Assembly (NCBI GenBank): GCA_021299385.1
Contig: JAJTGZ010000029.1
Span: forward strand, 1 to 44,144
Reading direction: 5' to 3'
Length of the DNA stretch: 44,144 nt
DNA from: Phycisphaeraceae bacterium
Lineage (GTDB): Bacteria > Planctomycetota > Phycisphaerae > Phycisphaerales > UBA1924
The first letter of the stretch is position 1. Each line of letters opens with the position of its first letter. A program made the position numbers and the translations under genes. Positions 11,683 to 23,474 of the stretch are shown piece by piece. Under the pieces are notes generated by a model. That model was given only the letters and a program-made list of their open reading frames with translations, was not told where the DNA came from and made no database searches.

Positions 11683-11756
11683 GGTGGTTATAGCTCAGTT
11701 GGTAGAGCACGGGGTTGTGATCCCCGGGGTCGCGGGTTCGAGTCCCGTTAGCCACC
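11683..11756 (+). tRNA. tRNA-His (anticodon GTG)
   Basis: The cloverleaf is complete. The acceptor GTGGTTA (11684-11690) pairs with TAGCCAC (11749-11755). G at 11683 is the extra G-1 facing C73 at 11756, the histidine identity element. The D arm is GCTC-AGTTGGTA-GAGC. The anticodon arm is CGGGG-TTGTGAT-CCCCG with GTG at 11717-11719. The T arm is GCGGG-TTCGAGT-CCCGT. The CCA end is not encoded; CTTTTT follows, which may help end transcription. Confidence 0.98.
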
Positions 11757-18753: not shown

Positions 18754-20961
18754 ATGCGGAAGCAACAACAATGTGTTCATGCGGTGGCCCTGACGATGCT
18801 TGCTGGCACGATGGCCTCTGCGGCTGTAACGGTCGATGGGAGGCTGACGCCGGGGGACAACTATGGCGCGGCCAAGTGGGTCAACACGGTCCCGACGGGC
18901 TTCGGCGACAACGTCGCGGGCCAGGGCTCCGACCCCGGCAACCCGTCTACGGCCACGACAGGCGTTGAGTTTGCGATCCCGTACTCGGCTCTTGGCTATT
19001 CGGGTGGGGCGTTGAAGATCTCGGCGTTTATCACCGGTGGTGGTGGGTTCATCTCCAACCAGTTTCTCGGGTCGCTGCCACTGCCCACCAACAACCTGGG
19101 CGGCAACGAGCGTAACAGGGACATGAACTCGATCGCGGGGGACCAATTCGTCTCCTTCACTCCCGCGGAGGCGGCCGTGCCGGTGATCGACGGGGCCCAG
19201 GACACCCTTTACGGCAGCGCCAAGGCGTTGCAGGGGAACTTCACGCAGTTCGGGAACGCCACCAACGGCGACGTGGTCGTGGCCAATGGTGGATCGGAGA
19301 TCAACGGCCTGTATGTTGTGCGCAACGACGCCACGCAGACGCTGACGGTCCTGCTTACGGGGAACCTTCAGAACAACGGGAACCGGCTGAACATCTTCTT
19401 TGACACCGTCGCCGGTGGTCAGAACCGCATCCTGCAGACGACCGGGTGGCTGGGCAACTATGGCTCGGACAACGGGACCAACGGCTTCACGTTTGACACA
19501 GGCTTTGAGGCCGACTATGCCCTGAGCATCAACTGTACCGGCGGTAATACGCCGAGGATCTTTTTCGATGCGGCGACCTTGCCGACGGACGTTGGTGCGA
19601 CCACCTCGTACCTCGGCTTCGCGAACTTCCCATCTGGTAGCGGGTTCGATGCGCCGGTGCTGACACCGCCCGAAGACGGCCCAGCATCGGCGATCCGCGC
19701 GACGATCAACAACAGCAATACCCTCGGCGTGTCGGCTTCCCTGGGGGGCAACCCCGCGCCCAACCAGTTCCTGGCCTATGGCTCGGAGTTCAACGGTGTC
19801 TTTGCCAAGATCGAAGGTGGCAAGCTGTTCGTGCTCGTTACGGGCAATCTCGAGAGCAGCTTCAACAAGGCGAGCTTCTTCTTTGACGTGGCCGCGGGCG
19901 GGCAGAACCGCCTGCGTGCGGCCTCCAACGTGCTGTTCAACTATGTGGGCAACACGACGGGGGACTTTGGCGCGTTGCAGAACATGGGCGGCGCGGACAC
20001 CGACTTTGTGCTCATCAACCCGGACGACCCGGCGGCTGGTTACACCAACACCTCGGGCCTGAAGTTCGACAGCGACTTTGCTGCCGACTATTGGTTCGCG
20101 TTGGGCAACGGTGGGAACACCCCTGAGAGTGTGGAGCTCTATGGCAACTCGGCGGTGCTGCGTACTGGCGGTCGTCGTGAGACCACCAACGGCTCGGCGA
20201 TGGACTACCGGTCATACTCCGGTGGGCTGGTCAACGGGAATCCCCCGGCGACGACGCCCTCGCCGGTGGTCTTTGCTGGGCCGACGATCAACCCCTTGCT
20301 GGACCCAACGTTCGGGTTCCCGCTCGATGGGGACAAGGAGGCGCAGTACGCCCCGCGTGTCAATGCCGACGTGATGGCCAACGCCGACCCTGCCCTGCGG
20401 GTGCCGGTGGCCAACCTCATCGCGTTGAAGCTGGACAACAGCAACATCGGTGGTGTAACGGCGACGACCGGGTCGGCGGCCGCGGCTGCTGCGGTTACGA
20501 CGGGTATGGAGTTCTCGATCGACCTGGCCGAGCTGGGCTGGGACGAGACCTCGGAGATCAAACTTGCAGGGTTCATCAGCAACGACGGGTACACCTTCAT
20601 CTCCAACCAGATCATCGGGTCAAGCTGGGACGGCACGGGGACGGCCCCGGCCAACGCCGGGAGCTCGCGTGTTGTGGACTTCTCCAACGACACCGCCTTC
20701 CCAGGCAAGCAGTGGATATCCCTGACGGCAGCGGTGAACCCCTGCCCGAACCCGAGCAACATCTCAGGCCCTGGGCAGAACACCACCGCGATCGACGGCG
20801 AGTTGACGGCCGACGACATCATCGTCTTCCTCAACCGCTTCTTCGCGGGCAACCTGCTCAGCGACGTCTCTGGCCCTGGGCAGAACACCACAGCGCTCGA
20901 CGGGGAGCTGACGGCCGACGATATCATCGTCTTCCTGAACCGGTTCTTTGCGGGGTGCTGA
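18754..20961 (+). CDS. Secreted protein with duplicated modules and a GC-type dockerin C-terminus
   Basis: A 735-residue protein; the start follows AGGAG by eight bases. It has a signal peptide (ALTMLAGTMASAAV). A first module (VDGRLTPGDNYGAAKWVNT to VSFTPA) is related to a C-terminal module containing MEFSIDLAELGWDETSEIKL and FISNQIIGSSW. Between them are two copies of another module, recognisable by LLTGNLQNNGNRLNIFFDTV and LVTGNLESSFNKASFFFDVA. The C-terminus has two 29-residue dockerin-like halves, GPGQNTTAIDGELTADDIIV and its near copy, ending in Ala-Gly-Cys. This is the C-terminus known in Phycisphaerae as a GC-type dockerin, probably a sorting or anchoring signal. Function unknown; a carbohydrate-binding-like fold is possible. 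Confidence 0.85.
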   Translation: MRKQQQCVHAVALTMLAGTMASAAVTVDGRLTPGDNYGAAKWVNTVPTGFGDNVAGQGSDPGNPSTATTGVEFAIPYSALGYSGGALKISAFITGGGGFISNQFLGSLPLPTNNLGGNERNRDMNSIAGDQFVSFTPAEAAVPVIDGAQDTLYGSAKALQGNFTQFGNATNGDVVVANGGSEINGLYVVRNDATQTLTVLLTGNLQNNGNRLNIFFDTVAGGQNRILQTTGWLGNYGSDNGTNGFTFDTGFEADYALSINCTGGNTPRIFFDAATLPTDVGATTSYLGFANFPSGSGFDAPVLTPPEDGPASAIRATINNSNTLGVSASLGGNPAPNQFLAYGSEFNGVFAKIEGGKLFVLVTGNLESSFNKASFFFDVAAGGQNRLRAASNVLFNYVGNTTGDFGALQNMGGADTDFVLINPDDPAAGYTNTSGLKFDSDFAADYWFALGNGGNTPESVELYGNSAVLRTGGRRETTNGSAMDYRSYSGGLVNGNPPATTPSPVVFAGPTINPLLDPTFGFPLDGDKEAQYAPRVNADVMANADPALRVPVANLIALKLDNSNIGGVTATTGSAAAAAAVTTGMEFSIDLAELGWDETSEIKLAGFISNDGYTFISNQIIGSSWDGTGTAPANAGSSRVVDFSNDTAFPGKQWISLTAAVNPCPNPSNISGPGQNTTAIDGELTADDIIVFLNRFFAGNLLSDVSGPGQNTTALDGELTADDIIVFLNRFFAGC

Positions 20962-20968
20962 GTGGGGA

Positions 20969-21086
20969 GGGGTTAGGGGTTGGGTTTTAGGGGTTAGGGT
21001 CAGGCAAATGCAAAGACCTTTCAACCTCGGACCTAACACCTAACACCTAACACCTAACACCTAGAACCTAACACCTAGAACCTAGA
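20969..21086. repeat. Period-7 inverted-array element
   Basis: The left arm has five 7-base units: GGGGTTA, GGGGTTG, GGTTTTA, GGGGTTA, GGGTCAG (20969-21003). The right arm has eight: ACCTAAC four times, ACCTAGA, ACCTAAC, ACCTAGA, ACCTAGA (21031-21086). The arms are inverses at most positions and are separated by 27 bases. It lies directly after the dockerin gene and before its terminator. Confidence 0.88.
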
Positions 21087-21094
21087 AACAAACC

Positions 21095-21124
21095 AACCCC
21101 GGGCCAGATGGCCCGGGGTTTTTT
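21095..21124 (+). terminator. Intrinsic terminator of the dockerin-protein gene
   Basis: An 11-base perfect stem AACCCCGGGCC with GGCCCGGGGTT has an AGAT loop and is followed by TTTTGTTTTG. The preceding inverted array would lie within the 3' untranslated region. Confidence 0.93.
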
Positions 21125-21157
21125 GTTTTGCGTTGGGGTGGCGATTGGGCGGAACGA

Positions 21158-21201
21158 AACCCACCCCTGCCCGTGCCGGCCAGGATGTTCTGGGGGGGGT
21201 C
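21158..21201 (+). repeat. 3'-end hairpin repeat, copy 7 (long loop, diverged)
   Basis: AACCCACCCCTGCCCGTGCC is followed by the inner GGCCAGGATGTTCTGG and a G8 run. It forms a tandem pair with copy 8, repeating the arrangement 3' of mscL. Confidence 0.75.
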
Positions 21202-21261
21202 TGGGTAAGCCGGACTTCCGGGCCGGGCGTTTTGGTTTTTGTTGCAGATATTGCCCGTGCC

Positions 21262-21297
21262 AACCCCACCCCTGCCCCTCCCCTCGGGGGAGGGGTT
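21262..21297 (+). repeat. 3'-end hairpin/G-quadruplex repeat, copy 8, with extended flank
   Basis: A perfect short-loop copy. The similarity to copy 10 extends about 59 bases further left (from 21203, matching 25008), giving a unit of 92-95 bases that includes the shared GCCGGGCGTT and ATTGCCCG. It lies 26 bases from the stop of the short aldehyde dehydrogenase gene that reads into it. Confidence 0.88.
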
Positions 21298-21323
21298 ATC
21301 AGAAAATGCAAACCTTCATTTGT

Positions 21324-22181
21324 TTACCACCCCACGGGGTGCCAGACGGTTTTGATCTCGGCGAGGGCTTCGATCGTGGCTAGGGTCTGCCAGCGGGTGT
21401 TGTCGAGCCAGTCGGAACCGGGCAGGATCGTTACGCGTTTGAGGTTCTCGGCTGCGCCTTCTTGGAGCGTGCGGGCGTGCTCGTCGGTCAGGCCCGCGGC
21501 GAGGACGGCGTCGATGTCGCGGTGCTTGGCGACCACGGGCAGCAGGTCGGCCAGGTCGGCGGTGAGGATGTTGGCCGTGCCGGGGGGGAGGTCGCAGGTG
21601 GCCAGCACCTCGCCGAGGGTGGAGGGGATGGGGGCGAAGGCGGGTGTGATGAGCACGCACGCGGCGCCGGTGGCAAGCACGGGGAGCATGAGCGACAGCA
21701 TCGGCAGCAGCGCCGGGGCGGCAGGGCAGGCGATGGCGACGACGCCGACGGGCTCGGGCGTGCTCAGGTTCCAGTACGGCCCGGCGACGGGGTTTTGCGT
21801 GCCGAGGATGTGGGTCCACTTGTCGGCCCACCCGGCGAAGTAGACGGCGCGGTCGATGGAGGCGGCGAACTGCTCGTGGGCGTCGGCCTCGCCGGCGTGC
21901 GTGAGCAGGTCGATGAACTCGGCACGGCGGGTCTGGAGCATCTCGGCCAGGCGGTAGAGGACCTGTGCGCGGTTGTAGGCCGTGGCGGACTTCCACTTGC
22001 CCAGGCCAGCGCGGGCGGCGAGCACGGCGTCGCGGAGGTCCTTTCGGCTGGCGCGGCAGGCGTGCCCGAGGATGCTGCCGTCGTTGGAGGTGATGACGGC
22101 GGTGCGGCCGCTCTCAGAGCGTGGGAAGGTGCCGTGGATGTAGAGTTTGTAGGTTTTCTGTACGTTGAGGCGGTCGGGCAT
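21324..22181 (-). CDS. Short aldehyde dehydrogenase-family protein without the catalytic domain
   Basis: A 285-residue protein; typical aldehyde dehydrogenases have about 480. It starts at ATG 22179-22181 with the segment RLNVQKTYKLYIHGTFPRSE, known from the second, shorter member of aldehyde dehydrogenase pairs next to deoC in actinobacteria. It keeps the NAD-binding half (VGVVAIACPAAPAL, GTANILTAD) and the family's C-terminal EIKTVWHPVGW, but has no segment with the catalytic Cys. It is therefore probably a non-catalytic partner rather than a recent truncation, because both ends are intact. No deoC or full-length partner is in the window. The ribosome site is unclear. Confidence 0.8.
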   Translation of the reverse strand: MPDRLNVQKTYKLYIHGTFPRSESGRTAVITSNDGSILGHACRASRKDLRDAVLAARAGLGKWKSATAYNRAQVLYRLAEMLQTRRAEFIDLLTHAGEADAHEQFAASIDRAVYFAGWADKWTHILGTQNPVAGPYWNLSTPEPVGVVAIACPAAPALLPMLSLMLPVLATGAACVLITPAFAPIPSTLGEVLATCDLPPGTANILTADLADLLPVVAKHRDIDAVLAAGLTDEHARTLQEGAAENLKRVTILPGSDWLDNTRWQTLATIEALAEIKTVWHPVGW

Positions 22182-22200
22182 GGGGGAGGGTAGGGGGTGG

Positions 22201-22350
22201 AAATGGGCAAATGGGCAAATGGGCAAATGATGAAGTGGCAGAGTGGCAAAGGAGCAGAGTGGCAGAGTGAAAGCGTGAATATAACACGGCTTGATTTGGT
22301 GATTTGACAATTTGGCTATTTGTCCATTTGACCATTTGGTTATTTGATAA
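22201..22350. repeat. Period-8 inverted-array element
   Basis: The left arm has AAATGGGC three times and AAATGATG, then a second block of AGTGGCAG-type octamers (22234-22273). The right arm has seven octamers in exact register, TTTG followed by three variable bases and A (22295-22350). CAAAT on the left pairs with ATTTG on the right. The right arm abuts hairpin copy 9. No gene lies between the aldehyde dehydrogenase and YdjY genes. Confidence 0.9.
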
Positions 22351-22384
22351 TCCCTCCCTGCCAGAACTATCTTGGGGAGGGGTT
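22351..22384 (+). repeat. 3'-end hairpin repeat, copy 9 (long loop, left end missing)
   Basis: TCCCTCCCTGCCAGAACTAT is followed by CTTGGGGAGGGGTT. The ACCCCACCCC part present in other copies is absent, and the octamer array begins exactly where it would be. One base separates it from the stop codon of the YdjY gene. Confidence 0.8.
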
Positions 22385-22385
22385 A

Positions 22386-23474
22386 TCAGCGGTCGGCGTT
22401 GATCGGGAGCAGGCGGACGGTTACGGCGGTGCCGATTTTGGGGAGGGTTTCCTTGCGTGCGATCCAGACCGGCTCGGCGATGTTGGCCTCGGGTGAGAAG
22501 CCTGCGCGTGGGGCGATGGTCTCGCTGCCGAAGGTTGCCAGCCCGATGAGCGTGCCGGTGCCGTCGGCGTCGTAGACCTCGGTGGTGGTGCCGTTGTTGT
22601 TGGCTTTGGGCAGGAAGCGTGAGCCGGCGAAGACCCACTGCTGGTCGGGGAGCGTCTTGCCGGTCTTGGCGTTGATGATGAGCTCTTCGACGCGGCGTGT
22701 GGTGGTCTGGTTGTCGGCCTTGAAGAGGATTTCGATGCGGAGCGCGGGGCCTGTGGCGGGCTTGGGTGCCGAGGGGTCCAGGCGCTCTGGGGTGCCTGGT
22801 TCCAGGCCGAGCAGGAGGAGCGCGGCGTGGATGTGCGAGGGCTTTGCGCTGGTTACCACCAGCGACTCGTGCTCGCGCGAGTCGCGCGTGCAGGCGATGA
22901 GTTCGAGGTAGACGTTGGGTGCGCCGGGGTCGTGGGCGTCGATGGGGATGGTGCCGTCAAACTCGACAAAACGCTGGACGCGATCGACGCGCACGGCGGG
23001 GAAGAGTTGGACGGGACCTTGCGCGGGGGTTGGCGCGGGGGTGGGTGTCTTTGGTGGTGTCGGTGGCTCGGGCTGTGGAGGTGGTGTGGGCGTGTGCTCG
23101 CGCACGGCGAGTGGTTGGGCGAGCTTCCAGGGGGTTGATTCGGGGGTGGTTTCTGATGTGGATTCTGTCCTCGGCTCTGCTCGGGTGGGTTCTGCGATTG
23201 GTTGTGGGTTGGGGTTGAGTGGGCGTGTGCTGGCGGTGCCGCCGGGGGGTTTGGGTGCGGGCGTGATGGCCTCGGGCGTGGGGGGTGTGGGCGTTGGGCC
23301 AGTCCGGCTGACGAGCGTGCGCGCGGTGGCGGTTGGTGCCTGCTCGGCGGGGGTGAGTGTGGGTATCGGCCTGATCGTCTGGGGTTGCGCGGGGGTGCTC
23401 TCGGCGCTGGTGCAGGCGTGCATCAGGAGCATGGGCAAGAGAAGTGTTGTGAGAATGGGCAGCACCCGTGGCAT
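22386..23474 (-). CDS. YdjY-domain lipoprotein with a Pro/Thr-rich linker
   Basis: A 362-residue protein. The N-terminal signal PILTTLLLPMLLMHAC suggests a lipid-anchored Cys near residue 21. Residues about 25-155 are a low-complexity Pro/Thr/Glu-rich linker (TPTPPPQPEPPTPPKTPTPA). The C-terminal domain matches the YdjY pattern: VRVDRVQRFVEFDGTIPID, LELIACTRDSREHESLVVT, then KPSHIHAALLLLGLEPG. YdjY domains are common in planctomycete secreted proteins, with no known activity. The start ATG lacks a strong ribosome site. The stop codon sits against hairpin repeat copy 9. The long linker implies the domain is held away from the membrane. Confidence 0.88.
   Translation of the reverse strand: MPRVLPILTTLLLPMLLMHACTSAESTPAQPQTIRPIPTLTPAEQAPTATARTLVSRTGPTPTPPTPEAITPAPKPPGGTASTRPLNPNPQPIAEPTRAEPRTESTSETTPESTPWKLAQPLAVREHTPTPPPQPEPPTPPKTPTPAPTPAQGPVQLFPAVRVDRVQRFVEFDGTIPIDAHDPGAPNVYLELIACTRDSREHESLVVTSAKPSHIHAALLLLGLEPGTPERLDPSAPKPATGPALRIEILFKADNQTTTRRVEELIINAKTGKTLPDQQWVFAGSRFLPKANNNGTTTEVYDADGTGTLIGLATFGSETIAPRAGFSPEANIAEPVWIARKETLPKIGTAVTVRLLPINADR

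Follow-up and report, generated by a model that had tools for sequence, protein, structure and literature searches.

Facing heptamer arrays behind a planctomycete dockerin gene are probably two border repeats of one genome-wide family

In this work we have examined two short tandem arrays which face each other behind a dockerin gene in a contig of a Phycisphaeraceae bacterium. Why do they stand in this arrangement? Are they the two halves of one element, belonging to a class defined by its architecture as the original prediction proposed, or two separate repeats, each oriented by its own surroundings? The locus lies in a stretch of 44,144 nucleotides, which as a whole we call the window. The upstream gene encodes a GC-type dockerin domain-anchored protein (18754..20961, plus strand, from an ORF and a gene call; its start is uncertain and the longest ORF runs from 18652); the NCBIfam profile NF041540, dockerin_GC, matches its residues 671-735 with an E value of 1.7e-16, and a comparison with Pfam gave no match at E 0.001. 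Seven bases, GTGGGGA (20962..20968, plus strand), lead from the stop codon to array 1 (20969..21003, plus strand), which is made of GGGGTTA-type heptamers with the G-rich strand on the plus strand and directed away from the dockerin stop. A strandless spacer of 27 bases (21004..21030), situated in the loop part of a predicted RNA hairpin, is followed by array 2 (21031..21086, minus strand), eight ACCTAAC or ACCTAGA heptamers whose G-rich strand, GTTAGGT, lies on the minus strand and is directed away from an intrinsic terminator-like hairpin with a T run at 21095..21124. This hairpin has 11 pairs and is terminator-like on both strands; the interval 20900-22420 holds three terminator-like sites compared with a shuffle mean of 1.5. 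The convergent gene on the far side (21324..22181, minus strand) encodes a portion of an aldehyde dehydrogenase family domain (profile positions 4-235 of 461 in PF00171, E 4.8e-27) and has matches in 59 of 61 family genomes, paralogues among them.

The coordinates of both arrays, the 27-base gap and the place after the dockerin stop, which ends at 20961, had been predicted and were right on inspection of the sequence. Array 2 is a clean run of eight heptamers of exact period, as had been claimed, without indels and in the order four ACCTAAC, ACCTAGA, ACCTAAC and two ACCTAGA. The count of five units in array 1 (GGGGTTA, GGGGTTG, GGTTTTA, GGGGTTA and GGGTCAG) was generous: four are recognisable, two of them exact, one at 6/7 and one at 5/7, but the fifth is poor at 3/7. 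TRF detected both arrays, array 1 with 76% matches and a score of 43 and array 2 with 90% and a score of 80. Our own period scan found array 2 and missed array 1, so that in an unbiased scan the site fails as an inverted pair of two strong arrays. A scan for the specific unit detected both arms at the site and gave no site in the reversed control.

A second inverted pair, of period 8, occupies 22201-22338 in the gap between two minus-strand genes. Its left arm (22201..22229, plus strand) consists of AAATGGGC and faces ATTTGACC in the right arm (22292..22338, minus strand, AAATGGTC-type on that strand); both G-rich strands point outward, and similar octamers, AAATGGTC and AAAGTGGC, occur elsewhere in the same genome. 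This was the only pair which a period-aware scan returned for the window, and 282 kb of the genome taken regardless of arrays gave one pair, also of period 8. Separately, CCCCACCCCTG occurs at four places in the window (4862, 15082, 21264 and 25066), at 21264 next to what appears by eye to be a short G/C-rich palindrome.

Is the heptamer peculiar to the dockerin gene? A 21-base pattern of the unit, allowing at most 3 mismatches, gave 85 matches in the whole genome and none for the backward control, and a scan for the unit TTAGGTG in 348 kb, from regions chosen for the unit, gave 31 sites and none for the reversed control. All our heptamer counts for this genome come from these chosen regions, except those for the 282-kb set. 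Intergenic arrays of periods 5-12 with at least three copies numbered 39 in the chosen 348 kb, where dinucleotide shuffles gave a mean of 0.10, and 20 in the unchosen 282 kb, where the shuffle mean was 0.05; chance as the origin of the arrays was rejected, with 0.10 expected and 39 seen. For 22 of the 31 sites the distance from a preceding stop codon to the array is -4 to 12 bases, and the array is G-rich in the sense strand. Of the remaining nine arrays, six precede a called start codon by 9-42 bases and are C-rich in sense, one adjoins a gene which is cut by the contig end (a dockerin-type end by motif), and the last two, array 2 among them, are 238-242 bases from a stop. The heptamer is thus one repeated family within this genome, and the idea that such elements have unrelated sequences does not hold as a general rule.

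Among near relatives the feature is patchy. At up to 2 mismatches the TTAGGTG unit was found in none of three same-genus genomes and in two of 37 other relatives; at up to 1 mismatch it was found in four of 294 phylum-drawn genomes besides that of the window. The backward control matched alone in six of the 294 phylum genomes and outnumbered the unit in two genomes, G108 and G158, from which it follows that the unit itself is not special and that other heptamers do equally well. Survey stretches which had not been chosen for the unit contained period 7 or 8 arrays in two of 16 cases, and 20 survey stretches held four inverted pairs, three of period 7 and one of period 9.

Beyond the phylum, we collected loci by an exact scan of public genomes for four units, which gave at least 109 stretches, chosen on a G-rich unit and with several per genome. 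The matches listed include Bacteroidota, Cyanobacteria, Desulfonema, Gemmatimonadetes, Chloroflexi, Armatimonadetes, Planctomycetota, Pseudoalteromonas, Shewanella and others. Among these matches, the other intergenic arrays had period 7 in 112 of 154 cases, period 14 in 12, 21 in three, 8 in eight and 9 in nine, and of the 89 seed arrays with both borders 22 had an inverted partner, 14 a direct one and 67 no inverted one. Period 7 is therefore general in the matches listed for these loci, and period 8 is prominent in the window's genome and in G051, a distant phylum-mate found through the TTAGGTG unit. Periods 7, 8 and 9 had all been announced for the window: the first two are present, but we found neither an intergenic array nor an inverted pair of period 9. 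That period is rare yet present elsewhere, also in two of 124 arrays in G051 and one of 20 in the window's genome. In a Pseudoalteromonas MAG (L269:2326-2618) about 12 units of TTAAGGG at a stop face about seven units of ACCTAAC, the TTAGGTG unit, before a convergent stop, which is polarity without matching units. At another locus (L263:5072-5245) the unit shifts along the array from TTAGGTG to TTAAGTG to TTAAAGTG, period 7 becoming 8. One contig of genome G002 (L096:1-91) starts with 13 TACCGAT copies, and it may be that arrays break assemblies. Our gene finder was a codon-usage script of our own, with little training sequence for short loci, and the G002 stretches, of which 30.6 of 36.4 kb were called intergenic through bad calls, are excluded from all conclusions.

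The freedom of the unit is seen best in G051, of which we scanned, at periods 3-24, a sample drawn regardless of arrays (430,566 bases, 74,028 of them intergenic). It contained 124 intergenic arrays: 74 of period 7, 28 of period 8, nine of period 14, six of period 16, one of period 21 and six others, so that 118 of the 124 fall at 7, 8 or a multiple; the minor periods include 6 in two arrays, and none was seen at 5, 10 or 11. The 102 arrays of period 7 or 8 are built from 63 different units. A period-aware comparison of inverted arrays with shuffled sequence, which had been proposed as a check, gave far more pairs than the shuffles: 36 inverted pairs in G051 (23 of period 7, 13 of period 8) and five direct ones, with 0.00 in the shuffles. 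Within the same gap, 41 of 108 arrays had an inverted partner and nine a direct one, and the null, with random other gaps, gave 54 in 2147 trials. A class defined by architecture is thus borne out in G051, where period and arrangement are shared without the sequence, but is modest in the window's genome. The pair does not stand as the unit of the design, since 67 of the 108 G051 arrays lacked an inverted partner at the threshold used, and paired gaps in the window's genome were mildly above chance (four observed, 1.38 expected, p 0.03, same-strand pairs none). The latter test placed the 28 of 31 arrays which lie in gaps of at least 60 bases, and the facing arrays of L057 (9489 and 9974) fall outside the four pairs.

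Why then do arrays face each other at all? In all sets together, the strand richer in G than in C pointed outward, with respect to the closest ORF border, in 255 of 343 arrays; these counts omit arrays with equal G and C, a missing border or equal distances, and the arrays are not independent draws, so that p values are too small. Outward and inward arrays near borders numbered 50:9 in convergent gaps, 17:4 in divergent gaps, 76:21 at the 3' end in tandem gaps and 54:8 at the 5' end. The corresponding figures for gaps free of arrays were, in the same order, 93:63, 154:139, 172:138 and 153:163, the convergent ones being mildly skewed too. At 3' borders the skew was 109:13 within 20 bases and about even farther out, with a median distance of 4 bases between outward arrays and the stop, and at 5' borders it persisted up to 120 bases. 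The window's genome alone gave 6:3 at 5' borders, which is not significant, and 2:3 in divergent gaps. In the 57 gaps with an inverted pair, each counted once, the 5' arm had more G than C in 50, more C than G in six and equal numbers in one. Where an outward array stands at each end of a gap, the arrays necessarily face, and nothing beyond the polarity at the single ORF borders is needed to account for the inverted pairs. We do not claim a rule at the level of DNA: the polarity holds in all four gene arrangements, but an RNA rule in two parts, with C-rich leaders and G-rich trailers, would lead to the same expectation, and the ranges of distance are not alike. Borders of tRNA genes were of no use as a tie-break, as one array lay near 28 tRNAs. 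Exact fold-back copying of a hairpin was considered as the source of the second arm and rejected, because the shorter arm matched perfectly in two of the 57 gaps; a match of at least 90% was reached in 20 and the median was 87%, values which are biased upwards because partners were found by alignment. The 20 gaps with arms at least 90% alike may contain old fold-back copies which have since changed.

We consider it probable that the arrays behind the dockerin gene are intergenic heptamer microsatellites, both members of one genome-wide family, and that each is set against a landmark with its G-rich strand outward and has grown in place by slippage. The landmarks would be the dockerin stop for array 1 and the two-way terminator for array 2, and outward G-rich strands at both would make the arrays face. 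Growth in place would occur through replication slippage in steps of 7-8 bases, gene borders would restrict the possible points of origin, and either selection close to starts and stops or a directional growth process would leave mainly the outward orientation. In the dockerin transcript the arms may pair into an imperfect hairpin, or array 1 may fold into a G-quadruplex, just before the terminator, and such a structure would be a side effect rather than a signal on which the gene depends, protecting the 3' end mildly at most. Two of our loci which are 90% alike, L264 and L271, have different copy numbers at one ORF border. Passages of MacGregor 2015 (PMC4679880) describe indels between close Cyanothece strains which are mostly in 7-base steps, and relatives with shorter gaps without repeats in the same gene neighbourhood; in passages of Rehm et al. 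2015 (PMC4692102) the position of the Xanthomonas repeats persists while their length changes. Against this, plain slippage fails to explain the dominant periods in G051 or the existence of a polarity. In the portions of two surveys which bear on this, bacterial SSRs with units of 4-11 bases are normally or weakly over-represented overall (PMC4060949), and no general excess of such repeats is described for bacteria (PMC12699852). As for the comparison with an empty site, the best family homologues were about 45-54% identical and two same-genus genomes 59-60%, which is too distant for this purpose, and none of the 20 relatives drawn for G051 came from its family.

Could the pair instead be kept for an RNA hairpin? 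A long imperfect stem in the 3' UTR would protect the dockerin mRNA from 3'-to-5' decay or aid termination, an explanation which we regard as possible but unlikely. As RNA, bases 20962-21095 reach a folding energy of -45.8 kcal/mol (3 of 200 shuffles equally good, z -2.66) and have the terminator directly behind them, and the excess of inverted over direct partners in G051, together with the well-matched arms of 20 of the 57 paired gaps, speaks for pairing. The array hairpin is not itself an intrinsic terminator, that is a GC-rich stem followed by a T run, since no T run lies behind it and the terminator-like hairpin at 21095-21124 is separate. A stem does not account for the majority of arrays that have no inverted partner in G051 and among the matches listed for the multi-phylum seed set, nor for direct partners in the latter, which are not rare there. 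Arms were seldom perfect, the units at L269 do not pair, arrays lie upstream of start codons too, and the pairing excess in the window's genome is weak. A known structured RNA as the identity of the site was rejected, as the sole Rfam match in the window at gathering score is a tRNA at 11684-11756.

Somewhat less likely still is a single directional process which remodels intergenic gaps across many bacterial phyla. Independent of sequence but measuring length, it would make units of 7 bases, and in certain genomes of 8 bases as well, with hardly any restriction on their sequence; the G-rich strand would grow away from a gene border, either by telomere-like end addition or by a polymerase with a slippage step of 7-8 bases.

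We find it improbable that the sites were spread as dispersed copies, by gene duplication or a small mobile element, and not made independently. By a motif test, dockerin-type gene ends lie upstream of 10 of the 31 heptamer sites, and a 251-base query matched many dockerin ends. Before the first TTAGG, 19 of the 31 sites have a unit with the ending AGGGG or AGGTG, and an outer AGCAG is common to five. Gene duplication may therefore explain some copies, but not most: 21 of the 31 sites have no dockerin-type end upstream, the flanks outside the arrays look unrelated by eye from site to site, and the 63 units of the G051 arrays are unlike the copying of one element.

Eukaryotic telomere repeats have a TTAGG-like unit and an outward G-rich polarity, and telomere fusions look like such polarity combined with head-to-head order, which our facing pairs resemble. 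Perhaps broken DNA ends within gaps are extended by units on their 3' G-rich strand and afterwards fused, so that head-to-head arrays result, but we regard this as very improbable for the dockerin site. The outward polarity and the G-richer 5' arm in 50 of the 57 paired gaps are what such growth would leave, two ends could bear different units as at L269, and the DNA homology between L264 and L271 ends at the array. The site differs from telomeres in being interstitial, and RVT_1 was not matched in its genome, which is 95% complete; Ku was not matched there or in G051, which had one RVT_1 match. Across 18 genomes, Ku was found in three and RVT_1 in 11, with no relation to arrays by eye. Outward arrays at 3' borders hug the stop and are not spread over the gaps, and the range of the polarity differs between 3' and 5' borders. 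In passages of Rehm et al. (PMC4692102) the Xanthomonas repeat gaps are more conserved than controls (90% versus about 70% unchanged), which also argues against this origin.

The least credible of these explanations is that array 1 works through a quadruplex, of RNA or of DNA. The four-tract G3+ motif is present in array 1 when its lead-in is included, the looser G2+ motif is present at 31 of 31 sites, and GGGAATC repeats form quadruplexes in vitro according to a passage of Rehm et al. (PMC4692102). Array 2, however, does not fit the G3+ motif, which occurs at only four of the 31 sites and in eight of 118 G051 arrays (the G2+ motif in 55 of 118) and is too rare to be a common property of the class. 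An effect on the dockerin mRNA is possible for the predicted RNA hairpin as well as for the quadruplex motif in array 1, but neither can be the common feature of the class.

How far do border repeats of this kind agree with those already described? Cyanobacterial short tandemly repeated repetitive (STRR) heptamers are intergenic heptamer tandem repeats, and we liken them to our arrays by description, not by sequence. The facing design has been described before: passages of Rehm et al. 2015 (PMC4692102) give it for Xanthomonas, and the polarity also for Nostoc. These passages describe GGGAATC repeats in Xanthomonas and GGGGA(C/T)T repeats in Nostoc and Anabaena, with no function found, which are intergenic, mostly 0-50 bases from an ORF, on the non-coding strand upstream and the coding strand downstream, some overlapping the stop; two Xanthomonas genomes have 70 and 75 facing inverted pairs, Anabaena has few, and the length varies between relatives. 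Our site has tandem heptamers of at least two units, G-rich on one strand; array 1 is intergenic, outward and 7 bases past the stop, within the 50 bases, whereas array 2, also intergenic, points away from the terminator and is separated by 238 bases from the convergent ORF. Facing inverted pairs occur here too, in four gaps of the examined part of the genome as well as in G051. As far as these passages go, the two systems share period 7, G-richness, intergenic place, polarity and facing pairs. They differ in that our unit is TTAGGTG/GGGGTTA and neither GGGAATC nor GGGGA(C/T)T, which makes the repeats the same kind but not the same sequence family, and also in lineage, in the presence of period-8 arrays in the same genome, in the dozens of units in G051 and in that most arrays of G051 are not G3+ quadruplex motifs.

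Passages of MacGregor 2015 (PMC4679880) report TAACTGA arrays in Beggiatoaceae, Cyanobacteria and Bacteroidetes and 'a range of repeating heptamers' in Microcystis, other heptamers accompanying TAACTGA there and in some Bacteroidetes. The likeness lies in intergenic heptamer arrays which are patchy across phyla. In contrast to our case, the TAACTGA repeats of the Beggiatoa genome are described there as standing for the most part directly before start codons, a single indirect repeat occurs among them, and related heptamers are repeated rarely or never; our site has neither this unit nor this position. The polarity rule and the facing pairs in Xanthomonas are thus already known from Rehm et al. 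2015, and what is new are the other lineages, the octamers and the many units in one genome. Our search of the literature on octamer, planctomycete and heptamer repeats, with most subscription journals outside its scope, gave no mixed period 7/8 class among the matches listed.

Bacterial heptamer repeats have so far been reported piecemeal, in Xanthomonas, Nostoc and Beggiatoa, and mostly with one unit per group. The period, the place at gene borders and the outward G-rich polarity can be common while the unit is free, even within one genome, and two questions can now be put to the test: how a length of 7-8 bases is measured, and where the polarity comes from. G051 offers the best opportunity to study the process. 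About 8% of its sampled intergenic DNA (L126-L130, L151-L170) is made of tandem arrays, many of them facing each other as hairpins, the densest case that we met. Beside its arrays we also noticed, by eye, a second dispersed palindrome (approximately GCGCCGCTTGCGGCGCG), which is repeated in the gaps of L154, L158 and L164.
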